Below, piece by piece: positions 2,390-18,286 of a stretch of DNA of 53,156 bases. Each line of letters opens with the position of its first letter. Positions within the stretch are counted from its first letter, which is position 1. The DNA lies in the NCBI GenBank assembly GCA_947175605.1, contig CAMWNH010000006.1, forward strand, positions 1 through 53,156, in the 5' to 3' direction. Both the position numbers and the translations under genes were made by a program. The notes under the pieces are model-generated. The model did not search any database and was not told the DNA's origin. It saw only the letters and a program-made list of their open reading frames with translations. Source of the DNA: an uncultured Porphyromonadaceae bacterium (GTDB lineage Bacteria; Bacteroidota; Bacteroidia; Bacteroidales; Muribaculaceae).

Positions 2390-2397
2390 TATCTTTG
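2390..2397 (+). promoter_or_regulatory. -7 promoter element of the B12 operon
   Basis: TATCTTTG followed by CA is a full match to the Bacteroidota -7 consensus. Transcription would begin around 2402-2405, just ahead of the first riboswitch helix at 2416. No good -33 element is evident. Confidence 0.75.
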
Positions 2398-2409
2398 CAG
2401 CGCTATGGT

Positions 2410-2585
2410 TGCTCGCATGGTGAAGAGTCACTGTTCAGGAGCAAGCAAAAGGGAATCCGGTGAGAGTCCGGGACAGTACCCGCTGCTGTAAGTCCCATTT
2501 ATTTTGGTTTCGCATAAGCCATTGGAAATCAGATCCGAGAAGGCGCGAATCCATAGGGATAAGTCAGAAGACCTGCCATGGCACA
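2410..2585 (+). promoter_or_regulatory. Cobalamin (B12) riboswitch
   Basis: Hallmarks of the cobalamin aptamer are present in order: AAAGGGAATCCGGTGAGAGT near 2447, GGGACAGTACCCGCTGCTGTAA near 2470, GCCATTGGAAATC near 2517, and the B12 box AGTCAGAAGACCTGCC at 2562-2577. The closing helix P1 can form between 2416-2420 and 2576-2580. It precedes a btuB-like gene, the standard target. Adenosylcobalamin or another cobamide should shut off the downstream operon. No intrinsic terminator is seen before the btuB start at 2739, so control is more likely translational, but this is inference. Confidence 0.95.
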
Positions 2586-2738
2586 CACGTTGTTTCGAGC
2601 CTGCGGGAATATGGGCTTATCCGACAAATATTTATATTTGCCTTTGTCAATGGTCCGGTAAAACGGATTTACGGCAAAACGGATGTCATTTCCCGCTTGT
2701 ACGTTCAGCGTGCCTGCGGTTATTTTTTTAGACATCAA
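2586..2738 (+). other. Leader between riboswitch and btuB
   Basis: About 150 nt with no supported gene. It should hold the expression platform. It also contains a perfect -7 motif TATATTTG at 2633-2640 without a recognisable -33 element, which could give riboswitch-independent transcription. The btuB ATG follows an AT-rich stretch (TATTTTTTTAGACATCAA), typical of Bacteroidota starts that lack a Shine-Dalgarno site. Confidence 0.45.
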
Positions 2739-4745
2739 ATGGCAAATAAAAACACATACCTATTCCTTGTTTCTTTTTTCCTTCTAAGCATTGACTTGCT
2801 TCAGGCGGAAGAAACGATCGATTCGCTCAAGACTGAAAACCTAAAGGAATTCGTTGTAACGGCAACCCGTCCGAGACACGAGACAATTCCCGTACAAACG
2901 CTTTCCGGTGACGAGCTTCAGAAATTGAACAGCAATAGTATCGCGGATGCTATACGCTACTTCTCCGGAGTTCAGGTAAAGGACTATGGCGGCGTAGGAG
3001 GTATTAAAACCGTCAACATACGTTCTATGGGCACAAACCACACAGGTGTGGATTATGACGGCGTTCAGCTTGGGAATGCCCAGAACGGCCAGATCGACCT
3101 CGGACAATTCTCTCTTGACAATATCGAGGCGATCTCGCTTCATAATGGCCAGAAAAGCTCCCTTTTGCAGCCTGCCCGAGACTTCGGGAATGCCGGTACA
3201 GTCTACATCCGAACCCGTAAACCTATCTTTGACAACGATAAGCGATATAATGCTCGTGCTAATATTCGGTTTGGATCATTTGATCTCATCAATCCCTCCG
3301 CACTTGTAGAACTTAAGCTTTCCGAGACGGTGAACGCATCGTTCAGTACGGAATGGCTTAACTCGAGCGGCAAATATAAATTTCGCTACAGACGTGTCAA
3401 TCCGGCCGGCGAAATAGCTTATGACACCACAGCTGTACGCGAGAACGGAGATATAAATGCCACTCGCGTAGAACTCAACCTCAATGGTAATATGAGCTTC
3501 GGGACGTGGACCGCGAAGGCGTATAACTATAATTCCGAACGTGGTGTTCCGGGGGCCATTGTAAATAATGTATGGCGACGTGGCGAACGAATATGGGACA
3601 ACAATTCATTCATACAAGGCTCCTCAACTATGTCTTTCGGGCGTTGGACCACAATGCAGAACGTCAAATATGCCTTTTATAGAACTCATTACGTCAACAA
3701 TGACGATAAGCAGATTAAGGTCGACAATCTCTATCGTCAACATGAATTCTATTTTTCAACAGCAAATCAGTTTGATATAATCAAGGGATGGAGTGCATCG
3801 GCAAGCTATGATTTCCTTTGGAATACACTCGATGCCGATGTGTATGGATTTGCACGACCGGACCGTTATACAAATCTGCTGTCACTCGCCACGGCTATAA
3901 ATATCAGTCGTTTTTCATTAACTGCAAGTGGACTTCTAACATTTGTTCACGACAAGCTGCAGGGACAGAAGGCTCCGGGGAATAAGCATGTATTTACGCC
4001 GGCGGTATACACTTCTTACTACTTATTGCGTGATAAATCTCTTTCGGTTAGAGCGTTCTATAAGCGCTCATTCCGCATGCCCACATTCAACGATCTGTAT
4101 TATGCCGATATGGGTAATTCACAACTTGACCCAGAGCGTGCCACACAGTATAACCTCGGCGTTCTATACGATAAGTCTCGACGAGGCCTCGTTTCGGCCC
4201 TACGTTTTTCCGCCGATGTGTATTACAACAAAGTAAAGGATAAAATAGTAGCTTACCCCAAAGGACAGCAGTTCCGGTGGACAATGCTCAACCTCGGAGT
4301 AGTCGACATTAGAGGTGTGGATTTATCCGCTCTAACGACCTTTAATCCCTGGCAAGAGCTGTTCCTGACCCTACGCGGCCAGTACACCTACCAAAGAGCC
4401 ATCGATGTGACCAATCCGGCCGACAATTACTATCGTGATCAGATTCCATATATTCCACATCATTCCGGCTCGGCAGTGGTGAACGCGCAGTGGCGCGGCA
4501 TAGGTCTAAACTACAGCTTCATCTACGTTGGAGCACGATATAATCAACAGGAAAACATACGCTACAACTACACGCAGCCGTGGTATACGTCGGATATCTC
4601 CGTAAGTTATGACTTCCATATCGGCCGAGTAAAGACTCGGGCGCTTGCTGAAATAAACAATCTTCTGAGTCAGGACTATGATGTAATCCTTAACTATCCC
4701 ATGCCCAAGCGCAACTATCGCTTCACTCTCTCCTTCGAAATATGA
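2739..4745 (+). CDS. btuB: BtuB-type TonB-dependent cobalamin receptor
   Basis: 668 residues from ATG 2739. The longer open frame from 2460 is rejected because it translates the riboswitch. A signal peptide (about 1-23, ending LLQA) is followed by a TonB box EFVVTATR at 37-44, closely like the TLVVTA box of E. coli BtuB. Then come a plug domain (LNSNSIADAIRYFSGVQV, VNIRSMG, GQKSSLLQPARDFGNAG) and a beta-barrel ending in NYRFTLSFEI. Such receptors use TonB energy to move cobamides across the outer membrane. The riboswitch upstream and the BtuG-like gene overlapping its stop by an ATGA confirm the substrate class. No N-terminal CarboxypepD-like extension is present, unlike the TonB receptor at 15.8 kb. 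The inner-membrane BtuCDF genes are not in this window. Confidence 0.92.
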   Translation: MANKNTYLFLVSFFLLSIDLLQAEETIDSLKTENLKEFVVTATRPRHETIPVQTLSGDELQKLNSNSIADAIRYFSGVQVKDYGGVGGIKTVNIRSMGTNHTGVDYDGVQLGNAQNGQIDLGQFSLDNIEAISLHNGQKSSLLQPARDFGNAGTVYIRTRKPIFDNDKRYNARANIRFGSFDLINPSALVELKLSETVNASFSTEWLNSSGKYKFRYRRVNPAGEIAYDTTAVRENGDINATRVELNLNGNMSFGTWTAKAYNYNSERGVPGAIVNNVWRRGERIWDNNSFIQGSSTMSFGRWTTMQNVKYAFYRTHYVNNDDKQIKVDNLYRQHEFYFSTANQFDIIKGWSASASYDFLWNTLDADVYGFARPDRYTNLLSLATAINISRFSLTASGLLTFVHDKLQGQKAPGNKHVFTPAVYTSYYLLRDKSLSVRAFYKRSFRMPTFNDLYYADMGNSQLDPERATQYNLGVLYDKSRRGLVSALRFSADVYYNKVKDKIVAYPKGQQFRWTMLNLGVVDIRGVDLSALTTFNPWQELFLTLRGQYTYQRAIDVTNPADNYYRDQIPYIPHHSGSAVVNAQWRGIGLNYSFIYVGARYNQQENIRYNYTQPWYTSDISVSYDFHIGRVKTRALAEINNLLSQDYDVILNYPMPKRNYRFTLSFEI

Positions 4746-5896
4746 AACACACATTCTTTCTTATAATTTTTCTGCCGCTCCTGATGGTCGCCACAAGTTG
4801 TCGTGAAGACGAACTTGTGGTGCCGACGGAGTATGACATCATTCCCGAATCGCCTTCTCCGCATAGTAAAGTACGAGGGTTCTACCTTCTAAATGAAGGG
4901 AATATGGGCTCAAACAAATGCACTCTCGACTATTTTGATTATCTGACCGGACTCTATGCCCGTAATTTCTATGCTGAGCGTAATCCTTCTGTAATCAAGG
5001 AACTTGGAGATGTAGGAAACGACATCGGCATATATGGATCCAAGTTATACGTGGTTGTAAATTGCTCGCACAAAGTTGAAATTTTAGACTCCCGGACCGG
5101 TATCCGCCTCGGCCAGGTAGATATCCCTAACTGCAGATACGTGCGATTTCATCGCGGTAAAGCATACGTAAGCTCTTATGTAGGCCCCGTACTGATTGAT
5201 CCATCGGCTCCTAAAGGTGCAGTATATGAGATAGATACCCTGTCGTACGCAATCACCCGAAAAGTCACGGTAGGATATCAGCCGGAAGAGATGGAGATTG
5301 TTGACGATTACATGTATGTAGCCAATTCGGGAGGGTATCGTGCACCCGATTACGATAATACCGTATCGGTGATTCAGATGATTGACTTCAAGCAGGTCCG
5401 TCAGATTCCGGTTGCAATTAATCTGCATCGTCTGAAGAAAGACTGTTATGGAAAGCTATGGGTTAGTTCACGTGGCGACTATCAGACACGTCCATCACGC
5501 TTATATGTACTTCAGAAGAAGAACGGATTCAATACAATGGAAGTTACAGACACGATCCCCGTGGCCTGTTCGAACATGGCTTTCTTCGGAGATTATCTGT
5601 ATTTCTATGCAACGGAATGGAATAACTATACTGCTTCAAACACTATAAGTTATGGAAAAATAAATATTCGCACACTGGAAATCGTATCGACTAATTTCAT
5701 CACCGACGGCACAGAAAAGGAAATAACTATTCCTTATGGTATTGCCATACATCCTGAGACCGGCGACATCTTCATTACCGATGCCAAGAACTATGTATCT
5801 TCCGGCACTCTGTATTGTTTTTCTCAAGACGGCAAAAAGAAATGGAGCGTTCGGACAGGAGATATACCCGCACATATAGCTTTTCTTCGTATATGA
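4742..5896 (+). CDS. btuG: BtuG-like surface lipoprotein, beta-propeller cobamide-binding protein
   Basis: 384 residues. A lipoprotein signal ends in VATSC with Cys20, followed by REDE, an acidic stretch that resembles the Bacteroidota lipoprotein export signal for surface display. The mature protein shows propeller-blade strands: RGFYLLNEGNMGSN, LYVVVNCSHKVEILD, GKAYVSSYVGPVLID, YMYVANSGGY, GKLWVSSRGDY, GDIFITDAKNY. This matches the BtuG/DUF5074 family. The B. thetaiotaomicron member BtuG2 is a seven-bladed propeller that binds B12 with extremely high affinity and caps BtuB. The gene overlaps btuB by ATGA, implying translational coupling and near-stoichiometric expression. Function is strongly inferred from family and context; binding residues were not traced. 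Confidence 0.87.
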   Translation: MKHTFFLIIFLPLLMVATSCREDELVVPTEYDIIPESPSPHSKVRGFYLLNEGNMGSNKCTLDYFDYLTGLYARNFYAERNPSVIKELGDVGNDIGIYGSKLYVVVNCSHKVEILDSRTGIRLGQVDIPNCRYVRFHRGKAYVSSYVGPVLIDPSAPKGAVYEIDTLSYAITRKVTVGYQPEEMEIVDDYMYVANSGGYRAPDYDNTVSVIQMIDFKQVRQIPVAINLHRLKKDCYGKLWVSSRGDYQTRPSRLYVLQKKNGFNTMEVTDTIPVACSNMAFFGDYLYFYATEWNNYTASNTISYGKINIRTLEIVSTNFITDGTEKEITIPYGIAIHPETGDIFITDAKNYVSSGTLYCFSQDGKKKWSVRTGDIPAHIAFLRI

Positions 5897-7095
5897 AAAC
5901 CAGATTTAGATTCAATTGCTTTTTCCTGCTTTTGGCGGTATGTGCCTGCACGGAAGAACTGCCGACCGTCAGTCTTGGCATAGATAACTATTACCATATT
6001 GCCCGGATGACAAAATTGCATTTATCGCCGGCTCTGACAGGTGAGAAATATCTATGGTGTGTCAATGGCGAAGCTGTTTCGCACGAACGCGAGTTCATAT
6101 TCATAGCCGCCGAGGAGGGTATCTATAACCTGTCTTTTGAGATAATTGATCCCGAAACACCATATCGTCATGAATTTACTGTCGCTGTATCTCATGAAGA
6201 AGTCGAGTACAGTGCCTACATTTCTCGTGTTTTCGAATACTGTCCTGCTCCGGGCCAATTTGTAAATGAGATGCCTCGATACGAAGAAGGCGACACTTAC
6301 AAAGATATTCTCCAAAAGGCTGAAGACTGTATCTCGGGGACCAACGACGAAATGATTACACTTGGAGCATACGGGGGATATGTGACGTTCGGATTTGATC
6401 ATACCGTAATGAATGTGCCGGGAGAAAAAGACTTCATGATTCGAGGTAATTGTTTTTACGAGCTGACGCAGCCAGACAAAAAAGGAGGCTCCGCCGAACC
6501 TGGAATTGTAATGGTGAGCTATGACACCAATTGTAACGGGATTCCCGATGACAAGTGGTATGAACTTGCCGGCAGCGAGTATTTTTCGTCCACTTGTACC
6601 CACAACTATTCAATCACGTATTATGCGCCCGATGAAAATCGTGAGATTGTCGGTGATGGGAACTTTATTACCGATTTGAATTATATATCCTGGACCGACA
6701 ATTCGGGCAACACGGGATATGTTGCCAAGAATATATTTCATAATCAGGATTATTTCCCGAAATGGATTCACGATTCGCAAATTTATTTCGAAGGTTCTCT
6801 TCTCGCAAATAATGCTGTGGACACAAGCGGCAACGGATCTTATTTTATCCTTTACAGCTACCCTTGGGGCTATGTTGATAATCATCCGAACGACTATCCT
6901 GAACTAAACTCTTTTGATATATCATGGGCCGTGGATTCAGGTGGAAACCACGTGGACTTGCCCGGGGTGGACTTCATCAGGGTCTACACCGGCGTGAATC
7001 AGTATTGCGGATGGCTGGGAGAGACTTCAACAGAACTAAGTCAAGCGCAAGATCTCCATATCTCCCTACCCGGCACACCTCAACCTCCAATGTAA
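5893..7095 (+). CDS. Surface lipoprotein of the B12 operon (PKD-like N-terminus)
   Basis: 400 residues from ATG 5893, which overlaps the btuG stop by ATGA; an in-frame upstream ATG at 5815 lies inside btuG and is rejected. The signal peptide leads to a lipobox-like AVCAC, most likely lipidated at Cys19, followed by TEE. Residues about 25-110 resemble a PKD/Ig-like strand sandwich (KYLWCVNGEAVSHEREFIF, GIYNLSFEI). The rest contains GGYVTFGFDH, a short DTNCNGIPDD calcium-loop-like motif, PGIVMVSYD, and SFDISWAVDSGG. Similar accessory surface proteins are common in Bacteroides B12 loci, where BtuH is a proven cobamide-binding lipoprotein. Whether this protein is a BtuH homologue cannot be decided by eye. 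Role in cobamide capture is inferred from position. Confidence 0.75.
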   Translation: MKTRFRFNCFFLLLAVCACTEELPTVSLGIDNYYHIARMTKLHLSPALTGEKYLWCVNGEAVSHEREFIFIAAEEGIYNLSFEIIDPETPYRHEFTVAVSHEEVEYSAYISRVFEYCPAPGQFVNEMPRYEEGDTYKDILQKAEDCISGTNDEMITLGAYGGYVTFGFDHTVMNVPGEKDFMIRGNCFYELTQPDKKGGSAEPGIVMVSYDTNCNGIPDDKWYELAGSEYFSSTCTHNYSITYYAPDENREIVGDGNFITDLNYISWTDNSGNTGYVAKNIFHNQDYFPKWIHDSQIYFEGSLLANNAVDTSGNGSYFILYSYPWGYVDNHPNDYPELNSFDISWAVDSGGNHVDLPGVDFIRVYTGVNQYCGWLGETSTELSQAQDLHISLPGTPQPPM

Positions 7096-7114
7096 AACAA
7101 AATAAATATCCCAT

Positions 7115-8089
7115 ATGAAAAAACAACTTTCATCACTTGTTGCACTCTCATCTTTTTGCATTGCCGCTGCATTTACGGTCGACTGGAATCGAATTCAGTT
7201 CTGGACGGGCGAAGGCGAAAACAAGGCTGCAATTGTTGTTCAATTTCTTGATGATGGCCCCGAGGAAGCATATGTATGGGGGTACAGATGGAAAAAGGAT
7301 ACGGAGGCATCCGGCGAAGACATGTTCAGAGCCGTTGCAGCAAGCTCTCCGGACCTGACGCTCTTCACACAGTTCACGGGACCGATGGGGAGCACAGTCT
7401 GTGGCATTGGTTATTCACATGAACACACAATTTCCGATTATCTTGAATTTGATTTTGATGCAGCGCGCGAAGATCCCAATATAAGCTTCAACTGGTTCTC
7501 AGCCAATACGATGCTTGGACAGACTTCTACACCGGGCTGGGATACTCCGGATCTATGCTCGGAAGCTATTATATTATCCAAAACCTCCCATATTCTTGAT
7601 CATCCGATAAATGCAATGGTGTATGGTTATGCATGTTACGACTATGACTGGTGGCAGCCATACGAACTCCCGGCTGATAAGCTCATACGATGGAATGCCG
7701 GCTGGTATAAAGGTTATTGGAGCTACTGGTGCGGCACTGCTGATTCTGAATCCTTCGCCTACTCAGGACTGGGAATGAGTTCCAGAAAACTGGCGGACGG
7801 AGATGTTGACGGATGGAAATATACCTCTCTTGACGGTGAGTATATTGATGGAAGCACCGGAGCAACAGCCGCATGGCATCCCCTTAACTATTCACACTTC
7901 TCAAGTTCGCACGTAAATGATATTACGACAGAGAATAATATTGAAAAAATATATGTGTATAACTCATCTGGTGTGAGGATCAGAGAACTCGAAAGTGATG
8001 TCACAATCGGTTACTTATACTCGATCTTACCCAAAGGCCTATATATAATTACAGGCATGGGCAAGACGAAAAAAATACTTATAGACTGA
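7115..8089 (+). CDS. Secreted Trp/Gly-rich domain protein with T9SS-type C-terminus
   Basis: 324 residues. The signal peptide covers about 1-20. Residues 26-240 form a Trp-, Tyr- and Gly-rich domain with landmarks FWTGEGENKAA (29-39), WGYRW (55-59), GEDMFRAV (67-74), AGWYKGYWSYW (195-205), YSGLGMSSRKL (216-226) and DGWKY (232-236). The same landmarks in the same order recur at residues 60-250 of the next gene. The C-terminal part, about 275-324 (IEKIYVYNSSGVRI then LPKGLYIITGMGKTKKILID), has the form of a T9SS type A sorting domain. This predicts export across the outer membrane and surface anchoring or release. It lies 19 bp after the lipoprotein gene in the B12 operon. I cannot name the domain; a cobamide-binding role is inference. 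Confidence 0.75.
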   Translation: MKKQLSSLVALSSFCIAAAFTVDWNRIQFWTGEGENKAAIVVQFLDDGPEEAYVWGYRWKKDTEASGEDMFRAVAASSPDLTLFTQFTGPMGSTVCGIGYSHEHTISDYLEFDFDAAREDPNISFNWFSANTMLGQTSTPGWDTPDLCSEAIILSKTSHILDHPINAMVYGYACYDYDWWQPYELPADKLIRWNAGWYKGYWSYWCGTADSESFAYSGLGMSSRKLADGDVDGWKYTSLDGEYIDGSTGATAAWHPLNYSHFSSSHVNDITTENNIEKIYVYNSSGVRIRELESDVTIGYLYSILPKGLYIITGMGKTKKILID

Positions 8090-8125
8090 TCAGCGTATTC
8101 TGAGTTTCCTCGAAAATGGAGACTT

Positions 8126-8150
8126 CTCCGGAATAGATTACATTCCGGAG
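8126..8150 (+). other. Intercistronic hairpin
   Basis: A perfect 9-bp stem, CTCCGGAAT (8126-8134) with ATTCCGGAG (8142-8150), and a 7-nt loop lie in the 124-bp gap before the 1,827-residue gene. Only a short T run (TTTT) follows after five bases, so it is a weak terminator at best. It may attenuate transcription or protect the 3' end of the upstream message, giving unequal expression in the operon. The rest of the gap (8151-8213) is AT-rich leader with several ATCA repeats. Confidence 0.6.
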
Positions 8151-8213
8151 ATCGGTTTTACATCCTATGCAAATAAAATCTATAAATCATACAATCATAT
8201 AAATCAATCAATT

Positions 8214-11200
8214 ATGAAAAAATCAATGCTATCGCTTATCGCTCTCGGATTACTAATATCCGGAGCATGGGCAAGTCTTACACCTCCGCGCAAAATTCCG
8301 CGCACTATTCAGGGTGTTGAAGTTTCCAATCCTGAAACACAGACCGGGAAGCTGTCAACAACCGACTACGAATGGGCAGATCCCGACGATTTGAAAGCCG
8401 ACGGGAGTTTTACTTTCGACATGATTCAAAACTGGAGCGGAGAAGGTTCCAACCAGGCCGCGCTTGTCATCCAGTGGAATGACAGCCGTGAGACAGCAGC
8501 CCTTGTATTTGGCTATCGATGGGACGGAGTTGCAACCGGCGCAGATATGATACGTGCCGTAGTTGCAAATAATCCTCGTCTATACACGCTCATTCAGTAC
8601 ACCAATGTGTCTTCCCCCACCGATCCAAACGGAGGTTACACCATCAATGGTTTTGGATGGGATGCAGACAACGACGGAGATATCGCGCTCAAGGACACAG
8701 GACACAACAATCAGATTTACACCTCTGAGGATGGTGTGTTTATTCATCCCCGCGGCTATGTTCCGGGACAGGGTGGTTCATCTGATTATGACTACGATAA
8801 TTGGCTGGCTACAGACGATGGAGATCTGTGGGGCGCGGGATGGTATATCTCGTACTGGTCGTATTGGGTCAAAGGCAGTGCAGATTCAAAATTCGGATAT
8901 TCAGGTTGGGGTGCTTCAGGACGAGTTCTCGAAAACGGATGTTGGGACGGATGGAATTTCGCGCTCAATATGTATGCTCCGGACTTTAAACCTTTCGTTT
9001 CCGCACCGGCGCTTATCCCGGAAGGTGCAAAAACACTTTTTGAACATAACGGTATTCAGTATTCCTTAGTCGATTATTCCAAATCAACGGTTGCTCTGAT
9101 TCCCTCCGAAGGAGTTGTATACAGCGGCGACATTACCATACCGCAGTCTTTCCATGATTCGGAGACAGACAAAGATTATACCGTTGTCGAAATCAAAGAT
9201 GAAGCATTCAAAAACAGCACGATAAGCAGTGTGATTATTCCCTCGTCAGTTACTAAGATCGGCAATTCTGCTTTTGAAGGCAGTTCACTTGCAACAATAC
9301 AGGGTGCGGACAATGTCTCTAAGATCGGAGTAAAGGCTTTCCGTAACTGCGTGGCTTTAAAAACGGTAGTTATTCCCGAAGGCACTACACAAATACCTGA
9401 AGCATTGTATGAAAATACAGCTATCGAAATACTTACAATGCCCGCCGGTATATCGACCATCGGAAACAGAGCTTTTGCAAGTTGTTCGGAACTTAAATCC
9501 ATTAATCTCCCTGAAGGAATAGTTGATTGGGGCACCGAAGTATTTGCAGAGTGTGATAATATCACCGGAGTGCAAACTACTGAAGTATTCCCGACTCCTC
9601 TTCCCGATGGATATTTCTCCGAAAATGCCTTCCAAAATGCCACTGTAACCGTACCGCTTGGCTATACGGATACATATAAGTCCATTTCAGGCTGGAAAAA
9701 CTTTGTTCATTATAGCGAAGAAGCAAAGAATGTATCAGTTGGAGATATGTTTATGCTCGATGGTGTTACTTTTGTAGTTACTTCCATCGAAGACCCGTAT
9801 ACTGTCGCTGTGACACATTGTAAAAGCGTCGGCGAAGATAACAACTCTATCCGAGAGGTAAATGCCACGGGCTATGAAGGTGAACTCCGAATCCCCGCTA
9901 TTATTAATTATCAAGGAAAAACGTTCGAGGTATCGGCAATTGAAAAATCGGCCTTCTATGGTGCCTCCAATCTGCTATCGCTCATAATAGATGCTGGTAT
10001 CCAAGAGATTCCCGACTATGCGTTTTATGATTGTACTTCCTTAAATTCGATTTCACTACCGTCCACCGTACAGACCATCGGGACCTATGCTTTTTCATAT
10101 TGCTCCGCACTCGACCGTCTGCAACTCCCCGACAATCTTACAACTCTTGGCGACCGTTGTTTCTTCCAGTGTACCGGTCTTGAATCACTGACTGTTCCGC
10201 AATCTGTCACAGCGATTCCGAATAATTGCTTCTCCTATTGCACATCCCTGAAGGAAATGATCCTTAGTGACAATATCACTTCATTCGGGTCTACGGTCTT
10301 TCAGAATTGCAAGGCTCTTGAGAAAGTGCGTCTCCCCGAATCGCTCAAAAAAATACCATCATCGACATTTGATGGATGCGTATCTCTTTCAGAATGCGTT
10401 CTACCGGCCGGTATTACCGAAATAGGCTCAACTGCCTTCAGAAATTGTAAAGCTCTCAAGATACTGATCCCCGAAACGGTAACGCAACTTGGCTCTTCTG
10501 CATTCCAAGGTTGCGTCATGCTTAATGAGGTATCCGTTCCTGAAGGGGTAACATCCCTACCCTCATATATTTTTCAAGATTGCTCTGCACTGAAAAGTGT
10601 ATCCCTGCCTGCTACACTCACAACTATTGGGTACGGCGCATTCACCAACTGTAAGGCGCTGACGACCATTTCAATTAATAATGAATCGGATGTTCAGGAA
10701 GGAACGATACATCTTCCCGTAGCATTAAGCTCTTTTGGCGGAGCTGCATTCAAGGGCTGTTCCTCCATACGCTCCGTCACAATGCCCGATGCCGTAAAGA
10801 CTATTCCGGCATCTATCTTTGAGAATGCATCCTCATTACAGGAGATAACACTTTCGCCGCTTACAGCATCCATTGCCACAACGGCCTTCTCCGGAACAGC
10901 GCTTAAGACTCTTGTTATCCCTGCCGCTGTCAAATCCTATTCCGGATCGAATCTCGTCTATGGATGCCAGGATATTAAAGTATATATTTGCAATCCAACC
11001 CCGACAACCCTCGCACAATATATCTGGCGTACGATAAGTTCTCCGCTGTCTTATGCCGACCTATATGTTCCTTTTGGCTCCGCCGATGCGTATTTAGCAA
11101 AAAACTACTGGAACAAATCTAATATCAAGGCACCTGTTCTTACTTCAGTTTCTGCTGAATGCAAATATGCTACCGAGGTCATATCGGGGAATATAACCGA

Positions 11201-13697
11201 TGTTGTATATGATCTGGAGAATCTCCCCTTTGCATATAAAGCAGAATGCGATAAACAGGTTTATTCAAGTTCCAAAGTTCAACTGCGCAATGATAGCTCG
11301 GACATAGTCGAAGGCGAAACCACTATCTCAAATGAGGGTAATTTCTCATTCGAAATTGATGGCAAAGCCGGAGACAAATATGAAATTGTTCTTGTAAACG
11401 GCAATAGCAGCTATGTAATTGCAAATATCGATACCGCTGAAGCTCCATTCCACTTCTCCGAAAGAACCTATCAGGCACGCTTTGATGAGCAGTTCACTCC
11501 GGAATTGGTTTTTGATAACGACAACTATTCTATTGCCGACGTCACTTTCACATCGGATAATACGGCTGTTGCATCCGTCAACTCCCGCACCGGCATGGTT
11601 ACGGTTAAGCGCATGGAGGGCACGGCCACAATAAAGGCAAGTCTCAAAACTGATAATTCAGTATTCGCAGAACTTGCCATCGAATCGGCACTCCGTACTC
11701 CGGTCACAAGTTTCAAGCTTGGGAACGGCAGTAAGGAAATTTCTCTTACCGAGCTTGATATTATGGCGCTATGTCCTGTGGTGGAACCTGTGGATGCCGA
11801 CGTCCAGACCTACGACATTGAGATTTCCGACTCGGAAATTGCAACAACATATAGCGTAACCGCCTTCAATCCGACTCGCAAGTTCTTCGAGCTCGTAACT
11901 CACCGAAGTGGAGAGTTTGATCTTACATTCCGGGCCCAGGATGGATCGGATGCATCCAGTACCTATCATGTTGTTGTATCGCCTCTCGGCATTGACGTGA
12001 ACGACAATTTCACGGATGGCACTTTCTGGCTGAATGAAGACTGGTTTGGCCACACAAACGGTTCAATTAACTATATCAGCAAAGACTATGAGCTTAATTA
12101 TCGAGTGTACGGAGCCCTGAATCCCGGCGAAAGCTTTGGTTGTACATCGCAATACGGAATCATTCATGGCGATAAGCTTATTGTCATGTCCAAACAAGCC
12201 GATGATAAAGGTGATCCACGTCCGGGTGGTGGCCGTGTGGTTATTGCGGATGCCAAGACACTGCACAAACTTGCAAGCTTTGACGAAATTGGCGGCGATG
12301 GACGTGCATGTGTCGGAGCCGGCGCCGGTAAGGTATATCTCGGCACTACGGGAGGTATAAGGATTCTTTATTCCGAACGTCTCGAACTCGGCGAACTCAT
12401 CGAAGGCATTCCTTCCGGATCTCTTTATGCAAGCCAGCCGGGCGACATGGTTCAGGCCGGTAAATATGTTTTCGTTATACGTCAGAATACCGGTGTATAT
12501 GCCATTGATATTGACACGGACAAGGTTGTTGCTTTCTATGATTCGGAAAATTCTGTAGCATACCCTCAAGGAATCACTCAGACTTCTGATGGAACGGTAT
12601 GGGTTGCTTCAACAGAGAAAGCATCCGGTGGCAAAGGCTACCTCGTTGCAATTAATCCTGAGACTCTTGATGTAGAATCCGTCAACGAAATGCCCGATGG
12701 TATGCGCGTTACGTGCGGTTGGGGCTCATGGCGCTCTACCAACTTCTTTGCTTCCAGAAATGAAAATGCTCTATGGTGGGGAAGTGGTGTTGACAATCAA
12801 ATCTATTCGGGTAACACCGGATATTACAAGTGGGACTGCACAACACCCCTTTCGGAACTTGAACCGATTTTTGTATTCCCCAAGAATCTCCAGGGAATCG
12901 ACGAAAAAACCATGCAGGCACCGTATGGCTCTGTACGTTACGATGATCGCACGGACCATCTGTTAGTTGCTGCGACCCATGGCTCATCATCGAACTACCG
13001 ATATACATGGCTGCACTTCGTGGATTGCAAGTCCGGAGAAATAGATAAGACAATACGCATGAAAGACTATTACTGGTTCCCGGCAATTCCTATTTTCCCT
13101 GACAAGCATGCACCGATGTTTGCCGAACTCCCGACGATTGAACTGTCGCTGGAAAATGATGCGGCCGGATACGATCTTGACCTTACGGATATAGTAAGCG
13201 ATGCCGATAATCACGACTTCAATATTCGCCTATCGCTGTTGTCCCGGGAAATTGAGAATAAGTCGCAGGTAATCTCTTTGTTTGAAATGACGGATGAAGA
13301 CAGCGATAATGAGCGTAAGAATGCTGTTATCGATGCCGAGCTCGATGGCAGGACTCTGACACTGACACCTCTTACATCCGGACAGACATCACTGACTCTT
13401 GTTGCGGAATCCAATGGCAAAACAACGCAAAAAGCAATTCCGGTAACCGTCAAATCCATTGACTCCGGCATCGCGAGCCCCTCGTCTGATGGTTCCATCT
13501 GCATAGTTAATAAGACTCTCTACATCAGAGGTCACGAGGGAGAGACTTTTATCATTAACGATCTCAGCGGTCGCGCTCGAGGTGCCTTCATCGTGTCGGA
13601 TAATGAATTCCGTATCGACCTGGCACTCTCGGAAGGAATATATCTACTCCAAAGTGACAAGTCGCTTGGCCATTCATTCAAATTCATAATCAAATGA
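8214..13697 (+). CDS. Giant mosaic secreted protein: Trp/Gly domain, BspA-like LRRs, Ig-like, beta-propeller, T9SS C-terminus
   Basis: 1,827 residues. Signal peptide about 1-20 (LLISGAWA). Residues about 60-250 match the domain of the preceding gene: NWSGEGSNQAA (73-83), GYRW (100-103), ADMIRAV (110-116), GAGWYISYWSYW (207-218), YSGWGASGR (229-237). Residues about 285-500 and 560-950 are BspA-type leucine-rich repeats, unit roughly F-x2-C-x2-L-x-S-x2-LP-x5-IG-x-x-A. About 1080-1260 look like Big_2/Ig-like domains (FTSDNTAVASVNSRTGMVTV). About 1262-1640 are a BtuG/DUF5074-like propeller with NEDWFGH at 1274-1280, paralogous to the next gene. About 1640-1750 are an Ig/cadherin-like spacer, and about 1755-1827 (FIINDLSGRARG, LSEGIYLLQ, KFIIK) are a T9SS-type sorting domain. 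It probably acts as a large surface scaffold or adhesin that gathers cobamides; the binding role is inferred from context. It overlaps the next gene by ATGA. Confidence 0.85.
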   Translation: MKKSMLSLIALGLLISGAWASLTPPRKIPRTIQGVEVSNPETQTGKLSTTDYEWADPDDLKADGSFTFDMIQNWSGEGSNQAALVIQWNDSRETAALVFGYRWDGVATGADMIRAVVANNPRLYTLIQYTNVSSPTDPNGGYTINGFGWDADNDGDIALKDTGHNNQIYTSEDGVFIHPRGYVPGQGGSSDYDYDNWLATDDGDLWGAGWYISYWSYWVKGSADSKFGYSGWGASGRVLENGCWDGWNFALNMYAPDFKPFVSAPALIPEGAKTLFEHNGIQYSLVDYSKSTVALIPSEGVVYSGDITIPQSFHDSETDKDYTVVEIKDEAFKNSTISSVIIPSSVTKIGNSAFEGSSLATIQGADNVSKIGVKAFRNCVALKTVVIPEGTTQIPEALYENTAIEILTMPAGISTIGNRAFASCSELKSINLPEGIVDWGTEVFAECDNITGVQTTEVFPTPLPDGYFSENAFQNATVTVPLGYTDTYKSISGWKNFVHYSEEAKNVSVGDMFMLDGVTFVVTSIEDPYTVAVTHCKSVGEDNNSIREVNATGYEGELRIPAIINYQGKTFEVSAIEKSAFYGASNLLSLIIDAGIQEIPDYAFYDCTSLNSISLPSTVQTIGTYAFSYCSALDRLQLPDNLTTLGDRCFFQCTGLESLTVPQSVTAIPNNCFSYCTSLKEMILSDNITSFGSTVFQNCKALEKVRLPESLKKIPSSTFDGCVSLSECVLPAGITEIGSTAFRNCKALKILIPETVTQLGSSAFQGCVMLNEVSVPEGVTSLPSYIFQDCSALKSVSLPATLTTIGYGAFTNCKALTTISINNESDVQEGTIHLPVALSSFGGAAFKGCSSIRSVTMPDAVKTIPASIFENASSLQEITLSPLTASIATTAFSGTALKTLVIPAAVKSYSGSNLVYGCQDIKVYICNPTPTTLAQYIWRTISSPLSYADLYVPFGSADAYLAKNYWNKSNIKAPVLTSVSAECKYATEVISGNITDVVYDLENLPFAYKAECDKQVYSSSKVQLRNDSSDIVEGETTISNEGNFSFEIDGKAGDKYEIVLVNGNSSYVIANIDTAEAPFHFSERTYQARFDEQFTPELVFDNDNYSIADVTFTSDNTAVASVNSRTGMVTVKRMEGTATIKASLKTDNSVFAELAIESALRTPVTSFKLGNGSKEISLTELDIMALCPVVEPVDADVQTYDIEISDSEIATTYSVTAFNPTRKFFELVTHRSGEFDLTFRAQDGSDASSTYHVVVSPLGIDVNDNFTDGTFWLNEDWFGHTNGSINYISKDYELNYRVYGALNPGESFGCTSQYGIIHGDKLIVMSKQADDKGDPRPGGGRVVIADAKTLHKLASFDEIGGDGRACVGAGAGKVYLGTTGGIRILYSERLELGELIEGIPSGSLYASQPGDMVQAGKYVFVIRQNTGVYAIDIDTDKVVAFYDSENSVAYPQGITQTSDGTVWVASTEKASGGKGYLVAINPETLDVESVNEMPDGMRVTCGWGSWRSTNFFASRNENALWWGSGVDNQIYSGNTGYYKWDCTTPLSELEPIFVFPKNLQGIDEKTMQAPYGSVRYDDRTDHLLVAATHGSSSNYRYTWLHFVDCKSGEIDKTIRMKDYYWFPAIPIFPDKHAPMFAELPTIELSLENDAAGYDLDLTDIVSDADNHDFNIRLSLLSREIENKSQVISLFEMTDEDSDNERKNAVIDAELDGRTLTLTPLTSGQTSLTLVAESNGKTTQKAIPVTVKSIDSGIASPSSDGSICIVNKTLYIRGHEGETFIINDLSGRARGAFIVSDNEFRIDLALSEGIYLLQSDKSLGHSFKFIIK

Positions 13698-15094
13698 AAC
13701 ACTTTTCTTTAGTCTCTATTCTATGTGCACTGCAGCTCGCCTTTCCGGCGAGCATGCAGGCCGAGACCGACTATTCGACAGGGATTCTGTGGGTGAATGA
13801 AGATTGGTATGGACATCAGAACTCAACCGTCAATTATCTCTTGCCTGACGATCCCGAAGAAGTATTCTGGTCATATAGGGTTATCCAGAGTGAAAATCCG
13901 GGTATGGAACTTGGGTGCACAAATCAATACGGTGCAATCTGGGATGGCCGTCTATATCTCATTGCCAAGCAAGACAAGGATCCAGGTGCAAGTATTGCCG
14001 GAGGACGCATCACGGTTGCAGATGCCCGAACTCTTAAGATTCTACATCAACAGGCTCTCATTGATCCTTCAGGCGCACAATGCGACGGACGCGGTTTCCT
14101 TGGCGTAGATGTCCATAAAGGGTATGTTTCTTCAAGCAACGGCGTATGGATTTTTGATCTGGATAAATACGAAGTGATAGGACAAGTCGCCGGAACCGAA
14201 AACCCTAATGTAGATGGGAACAGTTCTCCGAACACCAATCCCGGGGGTTCCCTCTATCACGGGCAGAGCGGAATGATGGTACAAGCGGATGGAAAGGTGT
14301 TCGTTGCGCATCAGCAATATGGGCTTCTCGTAGTCGATCCGCTTCAGGACCGTGTGGTAAAGACTATTTCCATGGATATCGTACGCGATGGTGCCGGCAT
14401 CGGTTCTATTGTAAAATCCAAGGATGGTATGCTATGGCTTTCGATCGCCGCCAATACACAAGGTTCCGGCAGCTGTCTCAACAAACTGCTTCGTATCGAT
14501 CCCAAAACACTTGACCCAGAGATAATCGATGTGCCGGAAGGTATGTATGCACCGTCCAACTCCTGGTATGCATGGACCCCCGATGCTTTCGTCGCCTCTC
14601 AAGTCCGAAATTGTCTATTATGGAAAGGCGGACCAAACAGCTGGTTTTCCGGAACAAAAATATATATTTTCGACTGCGACACTCGCAAGATTGAACTCTT
14701 GATTGATCTCGAACAGGAAGGCGCCAACTGGAAACTCTACGGATGTGCATTAGGTGTACACCCGCGGACTGATGAAATATACATGGCGCTTTATCATGAG
14801 TTTGGTACTCCAACCTACATCACTCGCAGATATTCTCCCGAGGGGACTCTGGTAAAGGACTATCCCATGATTGCGAACTACTGGTTCCCGTCTCTTCCTG
14901 TTTTCACGGAGGGACAAGCGGAAACAGGGGTTGAAAACGCCTTGATCGAAGATGTCAATCATGAAGAAACGGTCTACGATCTGCGGGGTGTCCCTGTTCT
15001 TAAGGGAACAGATCTCAGTGAACATCCGGATCTCCCATCCGGAATATACATACGCAGCGGAGCCTCAGGCACTCGAAAAATTCTGATTCGCTGA
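13694..15094 (+). CDS. Secreted BtuG/DUF5074-like beta-propeller with T9SS-type C-terminus
   Basis: 466 residues. Signal peptide about 1-23 with no lipobox cysteine. The propeller spans about 28-410: ILWVNEDWYGHQNSTVNYL, ELGCTNQYGAIWDGRLYLI, AGGRITVADARTLKIL, GVWIFDLDKYEVIG, KVFVAHQQYGLLVVD, DGMLWLSIA. These align block by block with residues 1262-1640 of the giant protein, so one arose by duplication of the other's domain. Unlike the BtuG-like lipoprotein at 4742, this version ends in a T9SS-type sorting domain, about 412-466 (ETVYDLRGVPVLKG, LPSGIYIRSGASGTRKILIR). Last gene of the B12 operon, translationally coupled to the giant gene through ATGA. A second, T9SS-delivered cobamide-binding propeller is the best reading, but binding is not shown. 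Confidence 0.82.
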   Translation: MKHFSLVSILCALQLAFPASMQAETDYSTGILWVNEDWYGHQNSTVNYLLPDDPEEVFWSYRVIQSENPGMELGCTNQYGAIWDGRLYLIAKQDKDPGASIAGGRITVADARTLKILHQQALIDPSGAQCDGRGFLGVDVHKGYVSSSNGVWIFDLDKYEVIGQVAGTENPNVDGNSSPNTNPGGSLYHGQSGMMVQADGKVFVAHQQYGLLVVDPLQDRVVKTISMDIVRDGAGIGSIVKSKDGMLWLSIAANTQGSGSCLNKLLRIDPKTLDPEIIDVPEGMYAPSNSWYAWTPDAFVASQVRNCLLWKGGPNSWFSGTKIYIFDCDTRKIELLIDLEQEGANWKLYGCALGVHPRTDEIYMALYHEFGTPTYITRRYSPEGTLVKDYPMIANYWFPSLPVFTEGQAETGVENALIEDVNHEETVYDLRGVPVLKGTDLSEHPDLPSGIYIRSGASGTRKILIR

Positions 15095-15116
15095 CGTAAC
15101 GCCCTCTCTATTATAC

Positions 15117-15165
15117 GTGCGGCACATGGGTTTGCGATTACCCATGTGCCGCACATTTCTTTTTG
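15117..15165. terminator. Strong terminator ending the B12 operon
   Basis: A perfect 15-bp GC-rich stem (15117-15131 with 15140-15154) and 8-nt loop are followed on the plus strand by ATTTCTTTTTG. It lies between convergent genes ending at 15094 (+) and 15171 (-), so it may also help terminate the minus-strand operon, although the T run is better on the plus strand. Confidence 0.9.
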
Positions 15166-15822: not shown

Positions 15823-18252
15823 CTAAAAATCTATCGTCAGACGAACGTTGAATTGGCGACGAGTCAGATAATTCGGAACGGCATATTGAATATCATTTAC
15901 ATCCGTCACCCAGTAGTATGAACTGACGTTAGAAATGTCAAGAAGATTGAAAACATCCACTCCAAGCCATACGCTTTTCAGCTTCCCGAGGAAACCACCT
16001 CGGGGATGTCCGTCTTTCGGAGGTGTGAGAAGGCCATAAGCCAGCCCCACATCGAGTCGTTTATAAGCAGGTGCTCGGAAGTATCCTTTGTCGCGTGAGC
16101 CTCGGGGCGCAGTCGTAGGAAGACCATCGGAAAATATACCGCGCAGATTGAACTTAAGCTTCGGAAATTTCGGGAAATAATCCGTGAAGAACAGTGCAAA
16201 TGAATATCTCTGGTCAGTTGGCCGAGGAACTTTCACGCCATTGAGTGTTTCCTGCGTCTTCATCAGCGAGAAACTCACCCACGAATCGCTCCCGGGCACG
16301 AACTGTCCGAAAAGCTTGAAATCAAGACCGGCAGTAAAACCGTTCGTCAGATTCTCACCGGAATACACCACTTTTAGATTGTCTATTTCATATGGAATCA
16401 GATTGCCGAGGATCTTATAATACGCTTCTGCCGTTAGCTTGAAGGGGCGGTCCATGGCGCGGAATGTATAATCTCCGCCAAGAATAAACTGATACGACCG
16501 TTGGCTTTTAATCTTGTCATTCAGTATGATGATAGTATTGCCCAACTCGTCTGCCACAGGTTTTCTGAACTCCTTGAAAAACGGGCTCTGATAATATAGC
16601 CCTGTAGCAAAGCGAAGCGAAAGTCGCGGACACTTAGCCGGCACAAATCCTACGGAAGCTCGCGGACTCACCAGAAATTCCTTATTGTAATCCCAGTATG
16701 AAAATCTGATACCACCGTTGACATTGAAATATCCCGCAGCTGCGTCGATGCGATAAGTATCTTCCACATAGAATGCCATGCGGTTACTCGATATGTCGTT
16801 CTTTGCGTTGAGGTTATACACAACGCGCACAGCGTCCGGATCAAACGGAAGCGAGTAGCCTGCCGAATCACGCAATTCCCACTCGCGCGCCCGATCGTGA
16901 ATAGTCTCATGCTTGAAGCTTATGCCGTAATCGAGATTATGACGCTTGATACCGGAGGAACCGCGAAGACTGATATCAAACACAGATGCCTTCATGCGAT
17001 TGCGGGCATGTTCGTGATAGCGCCCCACCCCAAGCTCACCACCGATTCCGGCATTTCCGTCATTACTTCCTGACGTACCGGCCTGATCAAGCCAATACTC
17101 ACCCGAAATATCGTAACTCACAAGTTCGTTGGATAAGAATCCACCGGCCTGAAGCGTAAAGATATTGGCTTTAGAAGGTTCCCACGTCAGGGATAAAGCT
17201 CCGAAATATGTTTCGAACCTATCTTTCTCCTGACCATCGAAATACACCGTAAATTCCTTGGCGTCCGTAGATGTGCCGAATTTCGTTGTACGGTTATGCG
17301 GTATGAATTTATAGTTATTTATCGCTATGTTCCCCAGGAAGTTTGCCTTCACCTTGTTGGAAAACTTATACGTCATCGAGGTCTGATAGTCGAAAAACTT
17401 AGGGTCATACTCGCCCTTGTCATCCATAGTGCCGAGAAGTGATGAATTTGTCTTATAACGCACGCCATGAATTTGCGAGAACCTACGCGAAGAAGATCCC
17501 AGTGCAAGCGATGCTCCCTGCAATGAAGCTGACAAGCTTCCTTCGAACGCTTCGGGCTGGCGATAAGTTATATCAAGCACGGACGACATTTTATCCGCAT
17601 AACGAGCCGAGAATCCGCCCGTGGAAAAGCCTATCGCTCCCACAAGATCCGGATTGACTATACTGAGGCCTTCCTGTTGGCCTGATGAAATAAGCTGAGG
17701 ACGATACACCTCCACGCCGTTGATATACACGGAGTTTTCATCGTATGATCCGCCGCGCACGCTATACTGTGAGGACAGTTCATTGTTCGAATTCACGCCG
17801 GCCATAGTGGTAAGCATCCCTTCGACAGAACCACCCGAAACATCAGGCGAAAGACGGAAATCCTTGATATCCATCTTCTGAATGGAGCCAGTCTGCTTCT
17901 GATACTCCGTAACTTCTACTCCCTGAAGGGCATATGATGCGGGAGTCATCTTCACATTTAGGGTCGTTTCCTTCTTGGCGCCGATAAGTCTGCGTCGCAC
18001 TTCCTCATAGCCTATACAGCTGAATACCACACGAATGGTATCGGCTTCCGGCGCTGAAAGCATATACTTTCCGTCAAGATCGGAGGTAGCACCTATTGCG
18101 GTTCCGGCAATGCGGATATTCACAAACTCAAGCGGCTCGTTATTCTCATCCGTGATCTGTCCCGAGATCTTCACGGGAGCAGACAAGGCATCGAACGAGC
18201 ACAGCAAGAAAGCAACAAGTATATAGAGATATAGAAATTTCGGACCTTTCAT
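15823..18252 (-). CDS. TonB-dependent receptor with carboxypeptidase-regulatory-like N-terminal domain
   Basis: 809 residues from ATG 18252 (MKGPKFLYLYILVAFLLC signal peptide). The open frame extends to 18300, but that would overlap the upstream gene and precede the signal peptide. Residues about 26-110 are a CnaB-like regulatory domain (VKISGQITDENNEPLEFVNI, GATSDLDGKYML). Next come a plug domain (GMLTTMAGVNSNNELSSQYSVRGGSYDENSVYINGVEVYRP) and a 22-strand-type barrel ending RRQFNVRLTIDF. There is no SusD-like gene beside it, so it is not a SusCD glycan pair. It follows the DUF5686 gene by 34 bp. Substrate unknown; siderophore, metal or peptide import is possible but not shown. Confidence 0.88.
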   Translation of the reverse strand: MKGPKFLYLYILVAFLLCSFDALSAPVKISGQITDENNEPLEFVNIRIAGTAIGATSDLDGKYMLSAPEADTIRVVFSCIGYEEVRRRLIGAKKETTLNVKMTPASYALQGVEVTEYQKQTGSIQKMDIKDFRLSPDVSGGSVEGMLTTMAGVNSNNELSSQYSVRGGSYDENSVYINGVEVYRPQLISSGQQEGLSIVNPDLVGAIGFSTGGFSARYADKMSSVLDITYRQPEAFEGSLSASLQGASLALGSSSRRFSQIHGVRYKTNSSLLGTMDDKGEYDPKFFDYQTSMTYKFSNKVKANFLGNIAINNYKFIPHNRTTKFGTSTDAKEFTVYFDGQEKDRFETYFGALSLTWEPSKANIFTLQAGGFLSNELVSYDISGEYWLDQAGTSGSNDGNAGIGGELGVGRYHEHARNRMKASVFDISLRGSSGIKRHNLDYGISFKHETIHDRAREWELRDSAGYSLPFDPDAVRVVYNLNAKNDISSNRMAFYVEDTYRIDAAAGYFNVNGGIRFSYWDYNKEFLVSPRASVGFVPAKCPRLSLRFATGLYYQSPFFKEFRKPVADELGNTIIILNDKIKSQRSYQFILGGDYTFRAMDRPFKLTAEAYYKILGNLIPYEIDNLKVVYSGENLTNGFTAGLDFKLFGQFVPGSDSWVSFSLMKTQETLNGVKVPRPTDQRYSFALFFTDYFPKFPKLKFNLRGIFSDGLPTTAPRGSRDKGYFRAPAYKRLDVGLAYGLLTPPKDGHPRGGFLGKLKSVWLGVDVFNLLDISNVSSYYWVTDVNDIQYAVPNYLTRRQFNVRLTIDF

Positions 18253-18286
18253 ATTTTTAAAACGTAAGAAGGACCGAAAAATTGTA

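Follow-up and report, generated by a model that had tools for sequence, protein, structure and literature searches.

A riboswitch-led operon of an uncultured gut bacterium of the Porphyromonadaceae probably encodes a two-layer cobamide uptake system, in which a capture layer delivered by the type IX secretion system (T9SS) would be added to the BtuB, BtuG and BtuH proteins of the outer membrane. The added proteins most likely serve, when B12 is limiting, to capture cobamides beyond the outer membrane and to hand them over to BtuG/BtuB. The computed support comprises the operon anatomy, the linkage to riboswitches across genomes, the homology of the P propeller with BtuG, the T9SS genes and the tail family; from these we infer that the added proteins are exported, that Y and P bind cobamides, that the genes are co-regulated in the cell and that cobamides are passed on to BtuG/BtuB. 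The operon lies in a 53,156-nucleotide stretch of DNA, which was analysed as a whole and is called the window here. Its three extra proteins are combinations of two modules, a domain named Y and a DUF5074 propeller named P, and its features are as follows.

2389 to 2594, + strand: cobalamin riboswitch aptamer (RF00174, 95.6 bits, E 1.3e-22)
2739 to 4745, + strand: btuB, BtuB-type TonB-dependent receptor, 668 aa (Plug and TonB_dep_Rec_b-barrel domains; operon position)
4742 to 5896, + strand: BtuG-like propeller lipoprotein, 384 aa (solved propellers 8blw, E 3.5e-37, and 8ptf, E 1.2e-36; DUF5074, 54.8 bits)
5893 to 7095, + strand: BtuH-like lipoprotein with PKD_3 and BtuH domains, 400 aa (8blw, E 2.7e-77; 7biz, E 3.1e-44)
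7115 to 8089, + strand: protein with one Y domain, a signal peptide and a T9SS-like tail, 324 aa (no Pfam match; Y alignment, AlphaFold2 model and tail)
8125 to 8151, + strand: 10-pair stem in the gap between the 7115 and 8214 genes (stem scan)
8214 to 13697, + strand: protein with a Y domain, a BspA-type LRR region, a Big_2 domain, a DUF5074 propeller (P) and a T9SS-like tail, 1827 aa (domain and tail profiles)
13694 to 15094, + strand: DUF5074 propeller (P) with a signal peptide and a T9SS-like tail, 466 aa (DUF5074, 371 bits; tail matched by the operon-tail profile at E 3e-9)
15117 to 15154, + strand: intrinsic-terminator-like stem of 15 pairs followed by a T-rich run (stem scan)

The RF00174 match, the domain matches and the stem scan confirmed the order given in the initial annotation, namely a riboswitch, btuB, a BtuG-like lipoprotein, a second lipoprotein and three further proteins with ordinary signal peptides before one terminator. 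The riboswitch is the sole RF00174 match in the 2,241,760-base (2.24 Mb) genome. The ATGA overlaps noted among the lipoprotein genes were found at the btuB/btuG and btuG/btuH joins, and another joins the 8214 and 13694 genes; gaps of 19 nt and 124 nt precede the 7115 and 8214 genes. The btuB product matched TIGR01779 at E 7.8e-32, under the cut-off of that model. The 4742-5896 protein is a propeller lipoprotein that adjoins btuB and is homologous to solved BtuG, with a Cys directly after the signal peptide when inspected by eye. The second lipoprotein, previously named as no more than that, is BtuH: its C-terminal BtuH domain is clear from the match to 7biz, while PKD_3 is borderline (26.6 bits, cut-off 26.3). 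Two large proteins adjoin the operon on the - strand (15823-20863), and by eye one of them is TonB-dependent-receptor-like with a carboxypeptidase-like N-terminal domain.

Operon-internal promoters, which the initial annotation had raised as a way for the last three genes to escape B12 control, were sought with two patterns. The Bacteroidota promoter pattern TTTG-N18-22-TANNTTTG had zero + strand matches within the operon, and a sigma-70-type scan had 8; over the region as a whole the sigma-70-type matches were rarer than in shuffles (17 against a shuffle mean of 24.7). The stem ahead of the 8214 gene could lower the expression of the last two operon genes. As a conserved element this hairpin was rejected, because among the 14 gaps before Y or Y-P genes that were compared the fold was strong in the window (-28.0) and in one other locus (L057, -51.8), the remainder being -2.6 or weaker.

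To place the operon among its relatives, one locus from each other Y-bearing genome of the family (77 fetched) was joined with the window, giving 78 loci, in which genes and riboswitches were mapped with in-house profiles (the riboswitch profile was built from 21 Rfam matches). In 66 of the 78 loci the first Y gene is preceded by a B12 riboswitch on its own strand, and in the other 12 the contig end was reached first. In eight loci 103-229 nt, free of other mapped genes, separate the end of the riboswitch from the Y frame, and Rfam confirmed all eight. The genes btuB, btuG and btuH occurred together in 59/78 loci. The commonest orders were btuB-btuG-btuH-YP-P (17 loci), btuB-btuG-btuH-Y-P-P (11) and btuB-btuG-btuH-Y-YP-P (7, the type found in the window), with gene joins that are mostly overlaps or short gaps. 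B12 riboswitches are general in the family (284/297 genomes, with 1-5 per genome among the matches listed). Seven Y loci from outside the family were also mapped: Y adjoins btuH in all seven, btuB and btuG stand in front in five, and an Rfam riboswitch was found in six, the seventh ending at a contig end. The evidence that the extra proteins are genomically tied to B12 uptake is strong, and the link proposed earlier is supported.

The Y domain comprises approximately 200-250 residues and is present in the 7115 and 8214 proteins, which share 36-40% identity over it. The window protein and 21 Y sequences were searched against Pfam, and no family was found for Y. Among the residues that vary little or not at all in Y are GYRW, Q, T, HP, YDYDxW, WY, YWSYW and YSG. 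The added layer had been attributed to this lineage, and that attribution did not hold: Y occurs in 78/297 genomes of the family (219 are without it) and in 19 of its 30 genera, and also in 7/394 other genomes of the phylum (8/395 when the window's own is counted). These seven fall into three other families: one is of the same order, and the remaining two are placed elsewhere in the class. The best reading of this distribution is that the putative capture layer extends more widely than this lineage. The window's Y had no match among plasmids. Among phage records, two faecal contigs filed as 'Bacteriophage sp.' match Y and are possibly bacterial DNA; the Y of one of these, from human faeces (MT835658.1), is 65% identical to that of the window.

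The two modules differ in what can be said of their relationships. P corresponds to DUF5074 at 371 bits in the 13694 protein and 326 bits in the 8214 protein, and profile comparison aligned it with BtuG at 98.6% probability and 19% identity; judged by these profiles, the P propeller is homologous to BtuG, a B12-binding protein. Profile comparison of Y with DUF4465, BtuH, BtuG, P and BtuB detected no relation, and Y as a relative of BtuH, BtuG, P or BtuB was rejected accordingly. Cobamide binding by Y would thus be argued from context, since the domain has no profile relation to DUF4465, BtuH, BtuG or P. Run against solved structures, the Y profile gave a single chance-level match.

An AlphaFold2 model of the mature 7115 protein was built from 25 sequences (mean pLDDT 85.6, pTM 0.75) and compared with the PDB by Foldseek, which returned 203 matches at E<=10 and none at E<=0.001. 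The top row among the matches listed was an unrelated glycosidase (E 0.012, TM 0.15). Within the best 50 of the 203 rows, 11 were transcobalamin or intrinsic factor chains, none of them significant and all redundant copies of two or three proteins; the best transcobalamin row among the matches listed was the human transcobalamin beta domain (5no0; E 0.53, probability 0.51, TM 0.64 by target length). Five of the best 50 belonged to a T9SS complex, the RgpB tail or PorU, as expected because the model includes the tail, and many others were cytokine receptors, Hfq and similar proteins. The transcobalamin share appears to be above chance expectation, and we regard it as a lead from a predicted model. 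A tentative extension, which may well prove wrong, is that Y would be the bacterial equivalent of the beta domain of transcobalamin and that Y-P proteins would be two-lobed extracellular cobamide carriers exported by T9SS, acting as bacterial transcobalamins that deliver their cobamide to BtuG/BtuB.

The initial annotation assigned C-termini of the T9SS sorting type to all three extra proteins. For the window alone this is a sub-threshold call, because its tails score below the TIGR04183 cut-off of 23 bits: the 7115 protein reached 17.8 bits as a whole and 21.6 bits with its last 90 residues, the 8214 protein 12.2 bits, and the 13694 protein had no match. What stood is membership in a tail family defined by relatives, and the T9SS call is based on these relatives' tails together with the SprA and PorU genes of the genome. 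The TIGR04183 cut-off was passed in relatives by one BtuH (L117) and three Y-P proteins (L148, L149 and L150); of the six Y-P proteins from outside the family, the three that were scanned scored 48-57 bits. At E<=0.1, TIGR04183 matched 85 of 150 Y/P tails (the three of the window and the first 147 of 166 others, 19 being left out) and missed 65, as compared with 1 of 60 BtuG/BtuH tails drawn from 128. An operon-tail profile, for which 94 Y and Y-P tails served as the training set, recovered 73/75 P tails and 0/75 shuffled ones; it matched 6/186 BtuG, BtuH and BtuB tails, all six from BtuH proteins without a lipobox.

The T9SS genes that the proposal calls for were found in the window's genome: SprA at 2718 bits and two PorU-type sortases at 786 and 452 bits, the sortase genes lying approximately 1.5 kb apart on one contig (C45). 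TIGR04183 gave 12 matches at E<=0.01 across this genome, seven of them over the cut-off, with the 7115 protein outside the seven. SprA was detected in 75 of 80 genomes tested, a set that leaves out four genomes with Y, and there was no match in G526, G209, G063, G106 and G134. SprA was absent from the search results of four family genomes with the operon, three of which are 93-99% complete (G209, G106 and G063).

The lipobox, called by a simple pattern, was present in 62/63 BtuG and 46/63 BtuH proteins, and in 6/178 Y, Y-P and P proteins. The 17 BtuH proteins off the pattern consisted of six without a Cys and with a T9SS-like tail, ten with a Cys by eye, and one with a misjudged start. The six come from six genomes (L117, L120, L121, L122, L124 and L125); that of L117 is over the PF18962 and TIGR04183 cut-offs, and that of L120 matches neither model while its BtuH domain matches BtuH2 at 1.8e-38. 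In one 99% complete genome with no SprA match (G526, locus L147), Y and P carry lipoprotein-type signals by eye. In this one genome the domains thus appear to carry a lipid anchor in place of the T9SS tail. P is joined to DUF4988 at that locus.

In the mechanism that we favor, cobamide scarcity would cause the riboswitch to permit expression of the operon. BtuB with the lipid-anchored BtuG and BtuH would form the known outer-membrane layer. The three further Y/P proteins would be exported by Sec and then pass across the outer membrane by T9SS, and on the surface or after release they would bind cobamides and pass them to BtuG/BtuB. The closest competitor, which we consider rather unlikely, accepts that Y/P capture cobamide and holds that they are mainly released or carried on vesicles as shared or scavenging carriers in the manner of BtuJ vesicles. 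Such vesicles are reported to deliver cobalamin in B. theta (PMC12751083), and an Elizabethkingia vesicle proteome lists a cluster of DUF5074, YncE family and cell surface proteins (PMC9431301), which may be the same trio as here. However, the conserved linkage with btuB suggests use by the same cell. It is improbable that Y/P are B12-regulated adhesins or structural proteins, with the LRR region of the 8214 protein attaching to a partner cell or to some surface while B12 acts as a mere signal, for example to reach cobamide-producing neighbours. The LRR_5 score of that protein is high (435 bits), and B12 control by itself is no proof of ligand binding, but many loci of the family have Y, Y-P or P without a mapped LRR, P is homologous to B12-binding BtuG, and the fold search with Y leans weakly toward transcobalamin. 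Least probable of all is that the tails are not T9SS signals and Y/P stay in the periplasm as Sec-exported helpers: the sub-threshold TIGR04183 scores in the window would fit this, and the operon-tail profile results, the clear scores that some relatives reach with TIGR04183 and PF18962, the presence of SprA and PorU, and the lipoprotein-type signals on Y and P in the one SprA-negative genome described above all argue against it.

Competition in the gut depends in part on cobamide capture. If the two-layer reading is true, dedicated B12-binding proteins reach the surface of many Bacteroidota by T9SS, a route for which no uptake test was found, and the unnamed Y domain, possibly with a transcobalamin-like fold, joins the B12 binders. 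The apparent exchange of lipid anchor and T9SS tail would then be a natural experiment on surface-protein delivery. That the arrangement recurs in related and in some more distant bacteria suggests that an outer layer of B12 capture has been overlooked.

Among known systems, the Bacteroides BtuB-BtuG-BtuH loci share with this operon the riboswitch lead, BtuB, the BtuG propeller lipoprotein and a BtuH with a PKD domain (PMC10404256; PMC8941943; PMC12751083). BtuG and BtuH are described as B12 binders in the same publications. The operon goes beyond these loci, as described there, with three more proteins that have T9SS-like tails, two of them with Y. A cobalamin riboswitch also precedes a TonB-dependent transporter in Flavobacterium psychrophilum, as reported in PMC9723704. 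In comparison with human transcobalamin beta domain and intrinsic factor, Y shows a weak but repeated, non-significant fold match of its model and no sequence match. Matches to the SCO2322 family (NF040672) at E<=1 were obtained for 20 of 21 Y sequences (best 1.2e-7); the Y of the window scores 21.6 bits against a cut-off of 85 over model positions 8-43 of 144. A literature search yielded no paper under the name SCO2322, and on the question of SCO2322 in Actinomycetota the 14 control genomes had no match.

The DUF4465/BtuJ proteins are secreted B12 binders, as is proposed for Y/P, and their genes are often found close to those for B12 transport and for PF16819 propellers (PMC12751083; PMC13398666). 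Eight DUF4465 members are reported to bind B12, PF16819 propellers lie near 40% of the larger cluster, and more than 70% of DUF4465 proteins are lipoproteins (PMC13398666); a T9SS-type tail (IPR026444) is given for 229 of 824 DUF4465 sequences (PMC12751083). In the family of the window DUF4465 is also widespread (187/297 genomes). Twenty loci (L155-L174), chosen for length among the DUF4465 matches, have giant frames of 1,990-2,346 aa in which DUF4465 lies close to the C-terminus; in all twenty a B12 riboswitch stands directly ahead with no mapped gene between by the in-house riboswitch profile, eight end in a T9SS-like tail according to the operon-tail profile, and one (L165) is over the PF18962 cut-off. 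The window's genome has a separate DUF4465 lipoprotein (L175, 286-1083), with no riboswitch found in the 2.5 kb that covers it. Unlike these proteins, Y shows no resemblance to DUF4465 at the profile level; the idea that it is a variant of DUF4465/BtuJ was rejected on sequence, at a probability of 0.2% against a DUF4465 profile of 20 sequences and with 0/21 Y sequences matching DUF4465 in Pfam.

The statement in the initial annotation that T9SS-dependent cobamide uptake had not been described needs to be narrowed: T9SS tags on B12-binding DUF4465/BtuJ are in print (PMC12751083), and it stands in so far as the sections on this subject yielded no test of T9SS dependence. The available sections of the open-licence literature on DUF5074, BtuB/BtuG/BtuH, cobalamin riboswitches and T9SS likewise yielded no description of the secreted proteins of this operon. 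Within these sources, T9SS-tagged B12 binders are already known in the form of DUF4465, and what is new here is the Y domain, previously undescribed.
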